The notes below the pieces were generated by a model, which was not told the origin of the DNA, ran no database searches, and saw only the letters and a list, made by a program, of their open reading frames with translations. Shown one piece after another: positions 42,211 to 64,000 of a stretch of DNA of 64,000 nucleotides. Numbering within the stretch: position 1 is the stretch's first letter; each line of letters begins with the position of its first letter. The translations under genes were made by a program, and so were the position numbers. This stretch comes from Myxococcota bacterium (GTDB lineage Bacteria > Myxococcota_A > UBA9160 > UBA4427), in assembly GCA_030748735.1 (NCBI GenBank), contig JASMLK010000106.1:1-64000 (forward strand). Reading direction: 5' to 3'.

Positions 42211-42297
42211 AGGCCCGGCGTTCCGCCGCGCAGACGTGGTTCACCCCACGTCGAGCAGCGGGACGTCGATTTCTCTTGCCAGAGTGCGGAGATATGC

Positions 42298-42332
42298 CGT
42301 CGCAGTAGGATGTTCATGAATAATGCGGGCTG
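42298..42332 (-). repeat. 35-bp repeat, single arm of the palindromic REP-like element
   Basis: Identical over 35 bp, in inverted orientation, to 63740-63774. Core GGATGTTCATGAATAATGC. Here only one arm plus the loop is present; the sequence upstream (CCAGAGTGCGGAGATATG) is unrelated. It lies 28 bp past the rhomboid stop (42361). Confidence 0.85.
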
Positions 42333-42360
42333 GTTCGCCATTGCGTAGCTGGTTCGGTGG

Positions 42361-59600: not shown

Positions 59601-60334
59601 TCACTGCGCTCGAGCAGCGAGAGCACGTCGTGCCCTTCTCGTTCCCACTGCGCACGCACCTCGCTCAGCACGTCACGCCACTTCGCCACGCGCTTTTCGA
59701 CCGTGTCACGCGAAAACCGCTCGGCCTCGGGGATCACCCGCGGCGGATCCGCGTCCGCGCCATGGCGCGCAACGCCCAGCCACTTTTCGATCTTCGGAAA
59801 CTTCGACCGCATGAAGTCCACCACGCTGGGGTCTTCTTCGGCGATCACATGCGACCAGACGTCCGCACCGACTTCGCGCAACAGTGCACCTTGATCGACG
59901 AGCAGCTCGACATCGAAGGCCGAGCGACTCTCGAACGCGTACTCGCGCAGGGCGCGCTGGCAAAAGCCGTGGATCGTCAAGATGGCGGCTTCGTCGAAGT
60001 CTGCGAGCGCGTCGACGAGATACCGGGTGGCGAGGGTGCGCTGGGCGTTGGTCGTGAAACGCGAAAGGAGGTCGGCGAGCACATCGTCGTCACCGGTCTC
60101 GCCCGTTTCGAAGGCATGGAGCGCTTCGCCGAGACGACGGCGAATGCGGTCGCGCAGTTCTGCCGACGCAGCGCGGGTGTATGTGATGACGAGGATCTTG
60201 TCGACGCTGAGCCGCTCATCGAGAACGAGCCGCAAGTAGAGCGTCGTGATGGTGAACGTCTTGCCCGTTCCCGCACTCGCTTCGATCAGTGTCGTGCCGC
60301 GGAGATCGACTTCGAAAGCGTCGAGAGGCTTCAT
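56663..60334 (-). CDS. recB: Exodeoxyribonuclease V subunit RecB
   Basis: 1223 residues. 3'-5' helicase plus nuclease. Walker A LIEASAGTGKTFTITTLYLR, ALVDEFQDTDQLQYEIVRRI (motif II), RVVTIHKSKGLEYPIVYCPF and LYVALTRAKHRCSVVWGA. The C-terminal nuclease motif GFVDLMFEWRGRYYVVDYKS with DYK is intact near residue 1120. ATG 60334 has GGAGGAG and overlaps the recC stop by 4 bp. The enzyme processes double-strand breaks and degrades linear DNA. Confidence 0.96.
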   Translation of the reverse strand: MKPLDAFEVDLRGTTLIEASAGTGKTFTITTLYLRLVLDERLSVDKILVITYTRAASAELRDRIRRRLGEALHAFETGETGDDDVLADLLSRFTTNAQRTLATRYLVDALADFDEAAILTIHGFCQRALREYAFESRSAFDVELLVDQGALLREVGADVWSHVIAEEDPSVVDFMRSKFPKIEKWLGVARHGADADPPRVIPEAERFSRDTVEKRVAKWRDVLSEVRAQWEREGHDVLSLLERSDQLNRRSYSVKNIQTIWRRDTEALLQDDRLPISSEGPRKKLARLGASGIEAGTKKGKAPPDHPFFGACEALLAANDDAAEALRDRQVSLERRLISETTKQLAERKREAARQSYDDLLAQMRTALVSPSGSRFAARLRSAFSAALVDEFQDTDQLQYEIVRRIWHDANAPLFLIGDPKQAIYAFRGADVHAYLRAKGDASERCFTLNVNWRSDPGLIDALASLFSPDNGSPFRMEEIRFEAVTARPGAVDALAPPKGESSPGALDLLFLEREGDKPIDKARVSEVVPWRVAADIARLLASETSIDGRPVGPGDIAVLCRTNDQTLRMVNALRAAGVAAALLGNASVLDSDEALDIERILEAIAEPRSLSRIRAALATRIFGKIAADFDGWRKDEFAWDPWLERFGAWHETWNRHGFVRMFHALLHEGDVHRRLLEVEGGERRLANILHIGELAERAAQGDHLGPQGMVQWLSRMRSDRELRGNAVGEEGELRLESDRAAVRVVTIHKSKGLEYPIVYCPFLFASAELQQAAKARTRFHMASDDPERDGEVVLDLGSPEHAENIERAREENLAEGTRMLYVALTRAKHRCSVVWGAVRDADKSALFPLLHPELDAAGWKQLDDGGLRGELEAFAESAAGSISVRSLSGDEAPRPQPAVQPPPGEAPEVSRVLTSTWRHSSFSQLAASDREVVPVLPPLRAEGADRDEVDAQDIEASEPLPEGECLFEGLAPGARTGVLLHSILEHLDFREPVNPQLEGELAGLLDRHGVDEVARGPLGRDIERVLDAPIGDQGLCLRALACGARLDEVEFLVPVAEQADGLRAAHLAALFREFADDEVSRQLAVDYAPRLERLRFESLTGYLRGFVDLMFEWRGRYYVVDYKSNHLGDNAADYQPAALLHPMQEHHYVLQYHLYTVAIDRYLAARVADYDYETHFGGVYYLFLRGMDPSAPTGTGIFQHRPSAARIAALSALLDAPGVAAA

Positions 60335-63300
60335 CCCAGCTCCTCCCGCGCCGCGAGCAGCGGTTCGTAGACCTCGGACGCCGCAGCCGCGAACGAAACG
60401 CCGCAAGCGAGGTTCGCGTCGGCGTCGAATGGATCGACGCCCCGAAACGCCAACTCGACATAGGGATCACTCTCGTCCCCGAAGCCCGACCAGGCGTCGA
60501 CCGCGAACTTCTTGCGCGCTGCGTCGATCGCGCCGGCCTCCCCCTTCTTCGCCAACGCGCTCGCATAGGCGCGCGACGCCTCGTGAAACAAGGGCAAGGG
60601 GGCCTTCAGGCCTTCCCGGTACAGGTCGACCAGCGCGGCGAGTCGCCCCTCGGCGTCTTCGCAGGGACCGAAGCGAATGGCGTAGACGTGCTGTTTGCCC
60701 GACTGCGCTCGCCCCACCAGGCTGGTCTGCGGCGGTGTCTTTCCGAATGCAGCGGGGTCGCGCGCACGGCCGACCTGCCACACCAGGTGCCGCAACCACG
60801 CGCGAAGCTCCGACCCGCGACCGAGCCTCTGAAACGAAGAAAACACCTGTCCCGCTTCACCGATCGCATCGAAATGACCGGTGATGTCGACGCCCCCACA
60901 CTGGATCGTGAATGGTTGCTTCGGCATCGCTTCGGACACGTTCAGTTCGGTGTTCCAGCGGGCGATCTGTTCGGCGTCCTGCACGAGGTCTTCGAAGGCG
61001 AGCCTCCCCGCACTGCCATGGGGCAGCACGCCCGTGGCGTCGACGACCTCGAAGGCGTCTTCGAACCCGACACCCGCTGCATGCAGGTCGAGGATCAGCT
61101 GCCCGACGTTTGCGGCTTCCCGCGGATCGAGCGAGAACGCCTCGCGGCGCGCGATCGGCTCGCGCTCGTCGCGAAGCACGATGCCGAGGGTGTCTCTCAC
61201 GAACGCGCGGGAGGGCGCGTGGAAGAAGGCGACCAGGTCTTCGAGAGCAAGCGAAGCGATTGCGGACTCCTCCGCTCCAGGATCGACCCGCACCGAAAAC
61301 GCACCCTCCCTTGCGACCCGGCTGGTGTCGATACGCGCAAGCTCGCGATGCAGCTGGCGATGGACCGGAAACACACGCCGCAGCTCGTCCTGGTAGCGCG
61401 CACCGTAGGGATGCAGAGGATGACGGATTTCGATCTGCTCGCGGATCCGTTTTCGCATCGCGCGATGCGAAAGGGGCTCACCCTCTTGATCGATCGCGTG
61501 CGCGTCGCAGATCACGTCGACCAACTCGCTCACCGCAGCCGAAGGCGGCAACTCGGCACCGTCGCGAATGCTCTGCCCCACGTAGGTGATCACGAGGCGG
61601 TCACGCGCCGACAACAGCGCCTCGAGAAAGAGATAGCGATCGTCGTCTCGCATCGTGCGATCGCCCAGCTTCGGGTCGCGCGCCATCAGGTCGAAGCCCG
61701 GTGGATGGTCGATGCGCGGGAAGGCGCCGTCGTTCATCCCCAGCAGACAAACCACGCGGAAGGGAATGCTCCGCATCGGCACGAGTTCACAAAACGTCAC
61801 CCCACCGGCCAGGAAGCCCGTCGACCGGCGCGCGTGCTGCAGTTGCCGCTCGAGTTGCTCGCGCAGCGAGGTCAGGCTGACGGCTCGCTCGAAGCCCACG
61901 TTCGTCGCCTGTTCGGCCGTCTTGACGATTGCCTTGCGGAGCATCAGATGCTGGTCGTGGTGATCGTCGTCGTCGATCGCGAGGCCTTCGAGAAAGCACA
62001 GAAGGGCTTCACGCCAGGCGTGAGGCGAGTTCATCCCGGAAAGCGTTGCACGCGACGCGACGAGAAAGCGATGGACTTCGAGCAGGCGTTCGAGGGTTTC
62101 GGCGCGTTGCCCCTCGGCGTCGCCAAACGGCTGGACGCCCTCGAAGAGCGCATCGTCCGCGCCTTCGATTGCCACACCGAGAAGCAGCCGATCGATGCCG
62201 AAGCGCCAGGTGTTGACGTCGATCTCGGGCTGCGCCTGCTCGGCGCGGTGTGCTGCGTCGATCCCCCAGCGAATGCCTGCTCCGCCGATCCACGCCTCGA
62301 CGCGGGCGAGGTCTTCGGTGCCAAGGCCAAAGTGCTGCGCGACACACGGCCGCCCCAACAGGTCGAGGACATCGGGGGCCGAAAAGCGGCCGGCCACGAC
62401 TTCGAGCCCCGCGAAGAAGGCGTCGACGACCTCGTCGGTCGGGTCGGGCCAGCGATCGGAGATTCGATAGGGAATGGCCCCTTCACCGCGCGCAGCCGCT
62501 TCGGCGCCGCGCGCACGAACCCCGAAGACCGCTTCGATATAGGGTGCATAGGTCTTGATGTCCGGCGTCATCACGACCACGTCCTGCGGTTCGAGACTCG
62601 CGTCGGCTTCGAAGCACGCGACGAGTTCTTCGCACAGGACTTCGACTTCGCGCATCGGGCTGTGGCAGGCGTGGATGCGCAACGAGCGATCACCCGAATC
62701 GAATGATCTTCGCTCGAGACCTGATCGCCCCGATGCTTGCAGCGTGTACACGTCGCTCTGGAGACCGCTGAGCAGGCCCTCGCCTACCGGCTCGCTGTGG
62801 AGATCCCCCTCCCCTTCGTCGAGGTCCCCACTTGCAACCAACATGCTGTGGAAGTCGCGACCGAGCTTTCCATACGTGGAGAGCAGGGGATGCCCGACGT
62901 CGAGATGGAGTTCTTCGTCGAGATCGACGCCCCCTTCGAGATCCACCGACGAACCTTCCCGGTGCAAGCTGCGCCGCGCTTCGCGCTCGGTCGCAACGTC
63001 GCCCCAGTAGTGGGGCGTCGGACTGAGCATGAAGAGGTGCAGTTCGCAGTGGCGACCGAGGGCGCGAATGAGATCGAAGTGAAGACGGGGCAGCGACGAC
63101 ACGCCGAACACGGAAAGCCGCTCGGGTAGCCGACCCGCCTCGACGTTTCCCCGAACCAGCCGATCGATCAGCGCGCGACCGCGACCCGCGAGATGACCGT
63201 CGCCGTGACGCGCCACGAGTTGGCGCCACAGAGTCGCTTGCCAGGCCACGTCCGGCTCGTCGGCGGGGGCGTGCGCGGAGGCGCGTGCAGGGTCGAGCCA

Positions 63301-63735
63301 CGCGTGGAGCATTTCTTCGCGGTAGCCCATGTAGCGATAGAAGGTGTTCGAGATCTGGTGCGCGAGTTGGATGCGACGGCGCCCGTCGGCGTCGTCTTCG
63401 AGATAGCCCGCGATCGACCCGAATTCGGGACGACCCTCGAGTTCGTAGAGCAACTCCGCGATCGACCACAGCATCGACTCGGTGTCGTAGACCGGATCGA
63501 CTTCGCGATCGAACATCCGAAGCGCAATGTCATCGACGAAGTCGCGTAAGGTCAGAACCCGCTGGTTTGCCCAGACACCGAGGCGCTGGGCGAGTTCCAT
63601 CGCGATCCAGCGCTCCATCCCCTGCCCCTGCACGACGAGAAGCTCGGGGTCGAACACGCCACTGCGCGGCACCGCGACCACTTTCGCGAGCGCTTCGATC
63701 AGGGCTTCAGCCCGGTTGCTGCGATGGATGATCAT
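60331..63735 (-). CDS. recC: Exodeoxyribonuclease V subunit RecC
   Basis: 1134 residues. The N-terminus IIHRSNRAEALIEALAKVVA aligns with the RecC start (xxYHSNRLDVLEALM). Further RecC landmarks: ELLVVQGQGMERWIAMELAQ, VFGVSSLPRLHFDLIRALG, VVMTPDIKTYAPYIEAVFGV and VCLLGMNDGAFPRIDHPPGF. The Chi-recognition channel subunit, without helicase activity. The start codon is 5 bp from a palindromic repeat, and no Shine-Dalgarno is visible. First gene of recC-recB-recD. Confidence 0.93.
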   Translation of the reverse strand: MIIHRSNRAEALIEALAKVVAVPRSGVFDPELLVVQGQGMERWIAMELAQRLGVWANQRVLTLRDFVDDIALRMFDREVDPVYDTESMLWSIAELLYELEGRPEFGSIAGYLEDDADGRRRIQLAHQISNTFYRYMGYREEMLHAWLDPARASAHAPADEPDVAWQATLWRQLVARHGDGHLAGRGRALIDRLVRGNVEAGRLPERLSVFGVSSLPRLHFDLIRALGRHCELHLFMLSPTPHYWGDVATEREARRSLHREGSSVDLEGGVDLDEELHLDVGHPLLSTYGKLGRDFHSMLVASGDLDEGEGDLHSEPVGEGLLSGLQSDVYTLQASGRSGLERRSFDSGDRSLRIHACHSPMREVEVLCEELVACFEADASLEPQDVVVMTPDIKTYAPYIEAVFGVRARGAEAAARGEGAIPYRISDRWPDPTDEVVDAFFAGLEVVAGRFSAPDVLDLLGRPCVAQHFGLGTEDLARVEAWIGGAGIRWGIDAAHRAEQAQPEIDVNTWRFGIDRLLLGVAIEGADDALFEGVQPFGDAEGQRAETLERLLEVHRFLVASRATLSGMNSPHAWREALLCFLEGLAIDDDDHHDQHLMLRKAIVKTAEQATNVGFERAVSLTSLREQLERQLQHARRSTGFLAGGVTFCELVPMRSIPFRVVCLLGMNDGAFPRIDHPPGFDLMARDPKLGDRTMRDDDRYLFLEALLSARDRLVITYVGQSIRDGAELPPSAAVSELVDVICDAHAIDQEGEPLSHRAMRKRIREQIEIRHPLHPYGARYQDELRRVFPVHRQLHRELARIDTSRVAREGAFSVRVDPGAEESAIASLALEDLVAFFHAPSRAFVRDTLGIVLRDEREPIARREAFSLDPREAANVGQLILDLHAAGVGFEDAFEVVDATGVLPHGSAGRLAFEDLVQDAEQIARWNTELNVSEAMPKQPFTIQCGGVDITGHFDAIGEAGQVFSSFQRLGRGSELRAWLRHLVWQVGRARDPAAFGKTPPQTSLVGRAQSGKQHVYAIRFGPCEDAEGRLAALVDLYREGLKAPLPLFHEASRAYASALAKKGEAGAIDAARKKFAVDAWSGFGDESDPYVELAFRGVDPFDADANLACGVSFAAAASEVYEPLLAAREELG

Positions 63736-63739
63736 GTCT

Positions 63740-63797
63740 AGCCCGCATTATTCATGAACATCCTACTGCGACGGATGTTCATGAATCATCCGGGCCA
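63740..63797. repeat. Palindromic REP/BIME-like element upstream of recC
   Basis: ATTCATGAACATCC and GGATGTTCATGAAT are perfect inverted arms around the loop TACTGCGAC, extended by GCCCG and CGGGC ends with two mismatches. The first 35 bp match 42298-42332 exactly in reverse. It occupies most of the gap between the aminotransferase stop and the recC ATG. Confidence 0.85.
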
Positions 63798-63814
63798 GGC
63801 GCTCGACCCGTGGT

Positions 63815-64000
63815 TCAACTTGTGAGGCGGGCGGCCAACCGGTCGACAGCCTCGGCCACGCGCTCGGGAGGCACCGCGGTGTAGCAGAGTCGCACCCAGT
63901 CGGCGTAGTCGGTGCCGCTGGACTGACCGGGTGCGACCAGCACGCCGTCTTCGAAGCAGTCTTCCAGGAAGCCCATCATGCCGCGCCCGTCGAGGCGTGC
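63815..64000 (-). CDS. Aminotransferase class I/II, C-terminal fragment (cut by window)
   Basis: Minus-strand reading to TGA at 63815-63817: GMMGFLEDCFEDGVLVAPGQ, SSGTDYADWVRLCYTAVPPE, RVAEAVDRLAARLTS. This is the typical C-terminus of a PLP-dependent aminotransferase (GV.V.PG..FG..y..w.RLc.ta.p...v...v.rL). The rest is outside the window. Same strand as recCBD, but the repeat lies between. Confidence 0.75.
   Translation of the reverse strand, partial: ARLDGRGMMGFLEDCFEDGVLVAPGQSSGTDYADWVRLCYTAVPPERVAEAVDRLAARLTS

Follow-up and report, generated by a model that had tools for sequence, protein, structure and literature searches.

The hairpin directly upstream of recC in the analyzed stretch of DNA (64,000 nucleotides, hereafter the window) is very probably a derivative of an IS1380-type MITE that reached this position by a lineage-specific insertion, a conclusion that concerns its identity and origin and not its effect. 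It belongs to an already known kind of element: 22-bp terminal inverted repeats are present at both ends, target-site duplications accompany 16 of the 21 two-ended copies, with the CTAG/CCAG pair at recC one mutation away from identity, copies without a transposase gene are dispersed over the genome (126 ends, in versions of 26 to 176 bp), and filled as well as empty orthologous sites were found, the congeners G001, G002 and G003 being empty both at recC and at a second site, cheW-cheY.

The perfect 14-bp arms and 9-nt loop described in the initial annotation are borne out exactly by the sequence (ATTCATGAACATCC at 63750-63763 and GGATGTTCATGAAT at 63773-63786). This 37-bp hairpin (63750-63786) forms the core within an element of 53 bp (63742-63794) whose terminal inverted repeats read CCCG(C/G)AT(T/G)ATTCATGAACATCC. 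The recC-proximal repeat CCCGCATTATTCATGAACATCC (63742-63763, plus strand) has outer ends as in IS1380-family elements, and the second repeat (63773-63794), supported by the alignment of copies, reads CCCGGATGATTCATGAACATCC on the minus strand. Outside the core the arms remain paired apart from two mismatches, until CTAG is reached next to recC (63738-63741) and CCAG on the far side (63795-63798), and the complete feature spans 63738-63798. The distance to the recC start, previously given as 5 bp, was roughly right; the ATG at 63735 is separated by 6 nt from the end of the terminal repeat and by 2 nt from the flanking CTAG. The loop TACTGCGAC (63764-63772) adjoins a deletion junction, recognized by alignment with the 176-bp parents, at which TACTGCGACGG from the left part of the parent is joined to ATGTTCATG from its right part at an ACGG microhomology. 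The 53-bp element has no coding capacity and contains no transposase gene. An Rfam search returned just a sub-threshold match to mir-5897 (31.9 bits against a gathering threshold of 90), which was taken as a chance hairpin and dropped as an identity.

Dispersal of the repeat, as proposed at the outset, was confirmed, with the suggested test string GGATGTTCATGAATAATGC occurring about 30 times in the genome. In the 5.08-Mb assembly, which consists of 160 contigs and from which multi-copy elements may be missing, the 37-bp core has three exact copies, the 14-nt arm 67, and the terminal motif CCCGSATNATTCATGAA 126 ends at up to two mismatches, while reversed-pattern controls for core and terminal motif gave zero, which shows that the hairpin did not arise by chance. 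Alignment of the copies revealed four size classes that keep both outer ends: 176 bp (contigs C21, C55, C80 and C85), 103 bp (C106 at 84 kb), 53 bp (C45, C127 and the recC copy) and 26 bp (C111 and C132). The 22-bp repeats are common to the larger sizes and just their outer part to all sizes. Several one-ended copies are truncated, among them a 176-bp version missing one end within the window (42217-42333, minus strand); this copy lies 6 nt beyond a called gene whose own last bases are CTAG. Along its length, the 176-bp form can be aligned with its reverse complement, which makes it a fold-back element, and the 53-bp form corresponds to it minus the interior between two ACGG motifs. All three 53-bp copies share one identical junction and the same CCCGGATG right end in unrelated flanks, a pattern that suggests past mobility and favors a single deletion followed by transposition of the 53-bp form over the alternative of a recurrent identical deletion. 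The series of 176, 103, 53 and 26 bp, in which the outer ends and CTAG are kept, makes visible a path from MITE to short hairpin, with a transposon family decaying into REP-like palindromes.

The flanking tetranucleotides of the 16 two-ended copies with identical flanks are CTAG in 15 cases and TTAA in one. This identity marks CTAG as the target duplication, and the TTAA case shows the tetranucleotide to be part of the target rather than of the element. The duplication is imperfect at recC, with CTAG on one side and CCAG on the other, and from the sequence and the empty-site comparison with congener G002 we read the CCAG flank as a duplication copy that has probably undergone one later mutation from CTAG. 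With a simple codon-model gene caller, which gives approximate starts and called 91% of the window as coding, not one of 68 copies was contained in a called gene; of 85 outer edges, 22 abutted a stop codon exactly (L001-L040, L255-L294). The absence from genes is partly explained by the distribution of the target, since CTAG is both depleted 13-fold in the window (16 occurrences, where base composition predicts 206) and clustered at stop codons, so that the choice of target in itself protects genes; the 14 occurrences outside elements comprise seven at stop codons, three in gaps and four in genes. A gene whose TAG stop is hit by an insertion stays intact, since the duplication regenerates CTAG. 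Tolerance of these elements has a simple reason in this combination: their target is rare in genes, often holds the stop codon and is restored upon insertion. Of these copies, the one at recC has the shortest distance to a called start (6 nt), with others at 13-26 nt.

These flanks also bear on the earlier designation as a REP-like palindromic element, which was correct in describing a dispersed palindrome inserted directly before recC, but the two-sided CTAG duplications, the IS1380-type ends and the 176-bp parent do not fit a REP. A true REP/BIME-type element, mobilized by a RAYT (Y1 tyrosine transposase) and acting as an mRNA hairpin, would share with the recC element the short, perfect, dispersed and extragenic palindrome as well as the predicted RNA hairpin, and one Y1_Tnp gene does exist in the genome. 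REPs are, however, defined by a one-sided GTAG or CGTC tag and have stems of mostly 6-9 bp (PMC3733652), whereas the recC element lacks such a tag, carries the duplicated tetranucleotide and the same terminal repeat at both ends, and has longer parents; these ends are absent around the single Y1_Tnp locus (L295), and no RAYT link is apparent. We rejected a REP/RAYT origin on the grounds of the missing tag and this locus, and consider it extremely improbable.

The assignment to IS1380 rests on complete elements with matching outer ends. A pattern scan of public genomes yielded two elements with CCCGG.TTATTC.TG ends and CTAG flanks around intact transposase genes, one of 1694 bp in a Blastocatellia MAG (L157; 456 aa, PF13701 E 7e-117) and one of 1690 bp (L231; 457 aa, PF13701 E 1.6e-120). 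A PF13701 search of the relatives added a broken IS1380 transposase gene in G049 (L123) between CTAG followed by CCCGCATTATTCGTGAAGG and TTCATGAATTAAGTGGG followed by CTAG. The matching outer ends and CTAG flanks around PF13701 genes identify the ends as IS1380-type, with terminal repeats like CCCGGATTATTCATGAA in L157, L231 and L123. In contrast to these elements of about 1.7 kb, the recC element measures 53 bp and encodes no transposase; this makes it a non-autonomous relative rather than a proper IS1380 element. In the own genome, the same search detected an IS1380 transposase remnant beside the end CTAG followed by CCCGGATTATTCACGAGCC at a contig end; at locus L132 (contig end of C83) the transposase remnant precedes the beginning of a second IS1380-like element that is cut off by the end of the contig, which suggests that the assembly lacks a multi-copy IS. 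Neither the 160 contigs of the own genome nor the relatives yielded an intact IS1380 element with the exact ...GAACATCC end, no autonomous partner was found among the one-ended copies in relative G014, and PF13701 had no match in G006 or G014, both of which carry many copies. From the outer 16-20 bp we infer a mobilizing transposase that acted in trans.

The exact CTAGCCCGSATTATTCATGAACATCC had no match in the public-genome scan, from which the own or a very near genome may be absent, and the distribution of the variant that has the GAACATCC arm seems limited. The shorter exact 22-mer CTAGCCCGGATTATTCATGAAG (L140-L219) was found in MAGs of Planctomycetota, Gammaproteobacteria, Krumholzibacteriia, Acidobacteria, Chloroflexi and Nitrospirae, with many copies in a Sedimenticola MAG (Gammaproteobacteria). 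The part of the literature covered by our search held no description of an IS1380-derived MITE. For IS1247, which belongs to the IS1380 family, 5-bp duplications are listed (PMC3281130), in contrast to the 4 bp of recC-type elements. Duplications of 4 bp (TTAA) and ends often beginning with CCC are known from piggyBac, for which IS1380 serves as outgroup (PMC10813416, PMC12732532); piggyBac is, however, eukaryotic, and recC-type elements prefer CTAG, with TTAA seen once.

Origin from another DDE family with CTAG/YTAA targets, for example IS5, was considered because of MITEPsy1 of Pseudomonas syringae, a transposase-less element of 100 nt and low copy number that duplicates CTAG or YTAA, has been tentatively assigned to IS5/ISPsy2 and has one copy lying 14 nt ahead of a start codon (PMC3189936). 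It resembles the recC element in its 4-bp duplication and in having a copy near a start codon, but differs in length, in copy number and in its terminal repeat, since its ends (GGAAGGT...) are unlike CCCGSATTATTCATGAA. Complete elements with the ends found here carry PF13701 (IS1380) transposases, and no IS5-family element with these exact ends was seen in an unsystematic search for IS5 transposases. We regard an IS5-type origin as very unlikely.

A search for RecC succeeded in 25 of the 61 genomes. The congeners G001, G002 and G003 share the recC start and have a similar upstream coding end close before recC (the gene order upstream was checked fully in G002), and none of them carries the element at this position, which makes the insertion lineage-specific. 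They likewise lack it at cheW-cheY, where the intergenic part did not align usefully. The leader of G002 ends in ...gaaacgCTCGacATG, while that of the genome under study, with the element removed, would end in ...gagcgCTAGacATG or ...CTGGacATG, depending on the original flank, in a short alignment that is no more than approximate except for the last bases ahead of the start codon. A leader common to all relatives, or a repeat absent elsewhere in the genome, had been named in the initial annotation as speaking against a dispersed insertion; neither appeared, the congeners being without the element and the repeat abundant elsewhere. Ends counted together with CTAG at up to two mismatches numbered 1 in G001, 1 in G002, 5 in G003, 21 in G006, 52 in G014 and 24 in G035, which suggests separate expansions.

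The gene affected by the insertion, recC (60331-63735, minus strand), is intact and encodes 1134 aa (Pfam Exonuc_V_gamma 9e-77, RecC_C 3e-40) from a start conserved in the congeners; Pfam confirmed the identities of recC, recB and recD, and recCBD is intact. Upstream, on the same strand, lies the 3' end of an aminotransferase-like gene (63815-64000, minus strand; 387 aa in full on the extended contig), which was named from sequence and not from a whole-protein family search and which occupies the same place in G002. With its stop 16 nt from the CCAG flank and its strand shared with recC, read-through transcription from this gene into recC is likely. A scan of the recC leader found no sigma-70-like promoter and no intrinsic terminator, and the suggestion that the element replaced the native promoter thus received no support: the gap behind the aminotransferase-like gene is short and on the same strand, and contains no promoter-like or terminator-like site. 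That no Shine-Dalgarno sequence precedes recC had also been remarked on in the initial annotation. G003 has AGGAG, but G002 has neither the element nor a Shine-Dalgarno sequence, and the lack is therefore not demonstrably attributable to the insertion. Palindromic mobile elements in co-transcribed gaps are also known as ERIC, NEMIS/Correia and YPAL, with proposed effects on mRNA stability or processing (PMC2229807); these have other ends and targets, and in contrast to them the recC copy is much shorter and its effect only predicted.

The course of events that we propose would begin with an internal deletion in the 176-bp fold-back MITE, giving the 53-bp non-autonomous IS1380-type element. A transposase acting in trans would then have placed this element at a CTAG 2 nt upstream of recC, duplicating the CTAG, after the lineage had split from the known congeners, and the same-strand gap between the aminotransferase-like gene and recC would have been lengthened from about 22 nt to 79 nt. 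In a read-through transcript from the upstream gene, the insertion would fold into a stem with as many as 24 pairs, whose base is 2 nt away from the start codon. In the folding prediction the 61-nt element reaches -38.2 kcal/mol (shuffles -14.2, z -9.2), with the base of the stem 2 nt from the recC ATG. Opening the region from -18 to +15 around the ATG is predicted to require 26.7 kcal/mol with the element, compared with 15.0 for an element-free version and 8.9-18.4 in the congeners, in a model that ignores coupling, helicases and co-transcriptional folding.

These values are consistent with recC translation that is, plausibly, dampened or coupled to the upstream gene, and an effect of the element on upstream mRNA stability may possibly be added. 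The most probable present effect of the insertion, at about even odds, is that de novo initiation at recC is reduced to a mild or moderate degree; otherwise the element would be a tolerated passenger. It is quite possible, if somewhat doubtful, that an element of the same origin is purely neutral here, with recC translation coupled to the upstream gene: the family is almost confined to gaps and stop codons, the upstream stop lies 16 nt from the CCAG flank and recC stays intact. On the other hand, about 12 kcal/mol is added to the predicted cost of opening, and the stem base falls within the region that the 30S subunit must occupy.

The leader further contains a possible minicistron (63738-63755, minus strand) preceded by AGGA at 63761-63764, in the layout AGGA-N5-ATG AAT AAT GCG GGC TAG-ac-ATG, whose stop lies 2 nt before the recC ATG. 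The element might have been co-opted to give recC a new start arrangement, either through termination-reinitiation at this minicistron or through an outward -10-like AATAAT yielding a near-leaderless mRNA. The position of the stop, the lack of a Shine-Dalgarno sequence of recC itself and the intact recCBD would agree with such a role, which we nevertheless hold to be unlikely: AGGA is located at the upper end of the stem, the scan yielded no promoter-like site, the sister species without Shine-Dalgarno sequence and element needs no such device, and the same sequence is present by default at every copy with this end. The minicistron is a by-product of the terminal repeat, and its translation is speculation. 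Equally improbable is a wider proposal in which a CTAG-homing IS1380-type MITE seeds hairpins at operon junctions, CTAG being scarce within genes and clustered at stop codons, and in which the recC-proximal copy exerts translational control through hairpin and minicistron that sets the RecBCD level in this species. With a mobile hairpin set against the start codon of a recombination-repair operon, recC offers a concrete and testable case.

Further repeats were encountered. A second MITE sub-family in the own genome (L103-L108, L119, L122) has the same outer end and a different interior and occurs in forms of 88 and about 174 bp, the longer of which contains the inner palindrome ACGTACTGAAAGTACGT. 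The short repeat GGAGCCTGACCCAAGACTCC is often located directly beside CTAG or beside the recC-type elements (L005, L006, L029, L056, L111, L259) and is also present in relative G007. Another repeat, GGTCCGGCCGGAAAG, adjoins or lies near element ends (L010, L027, L114) and is possibly a further palindromic repeat family that serves as a landing site.
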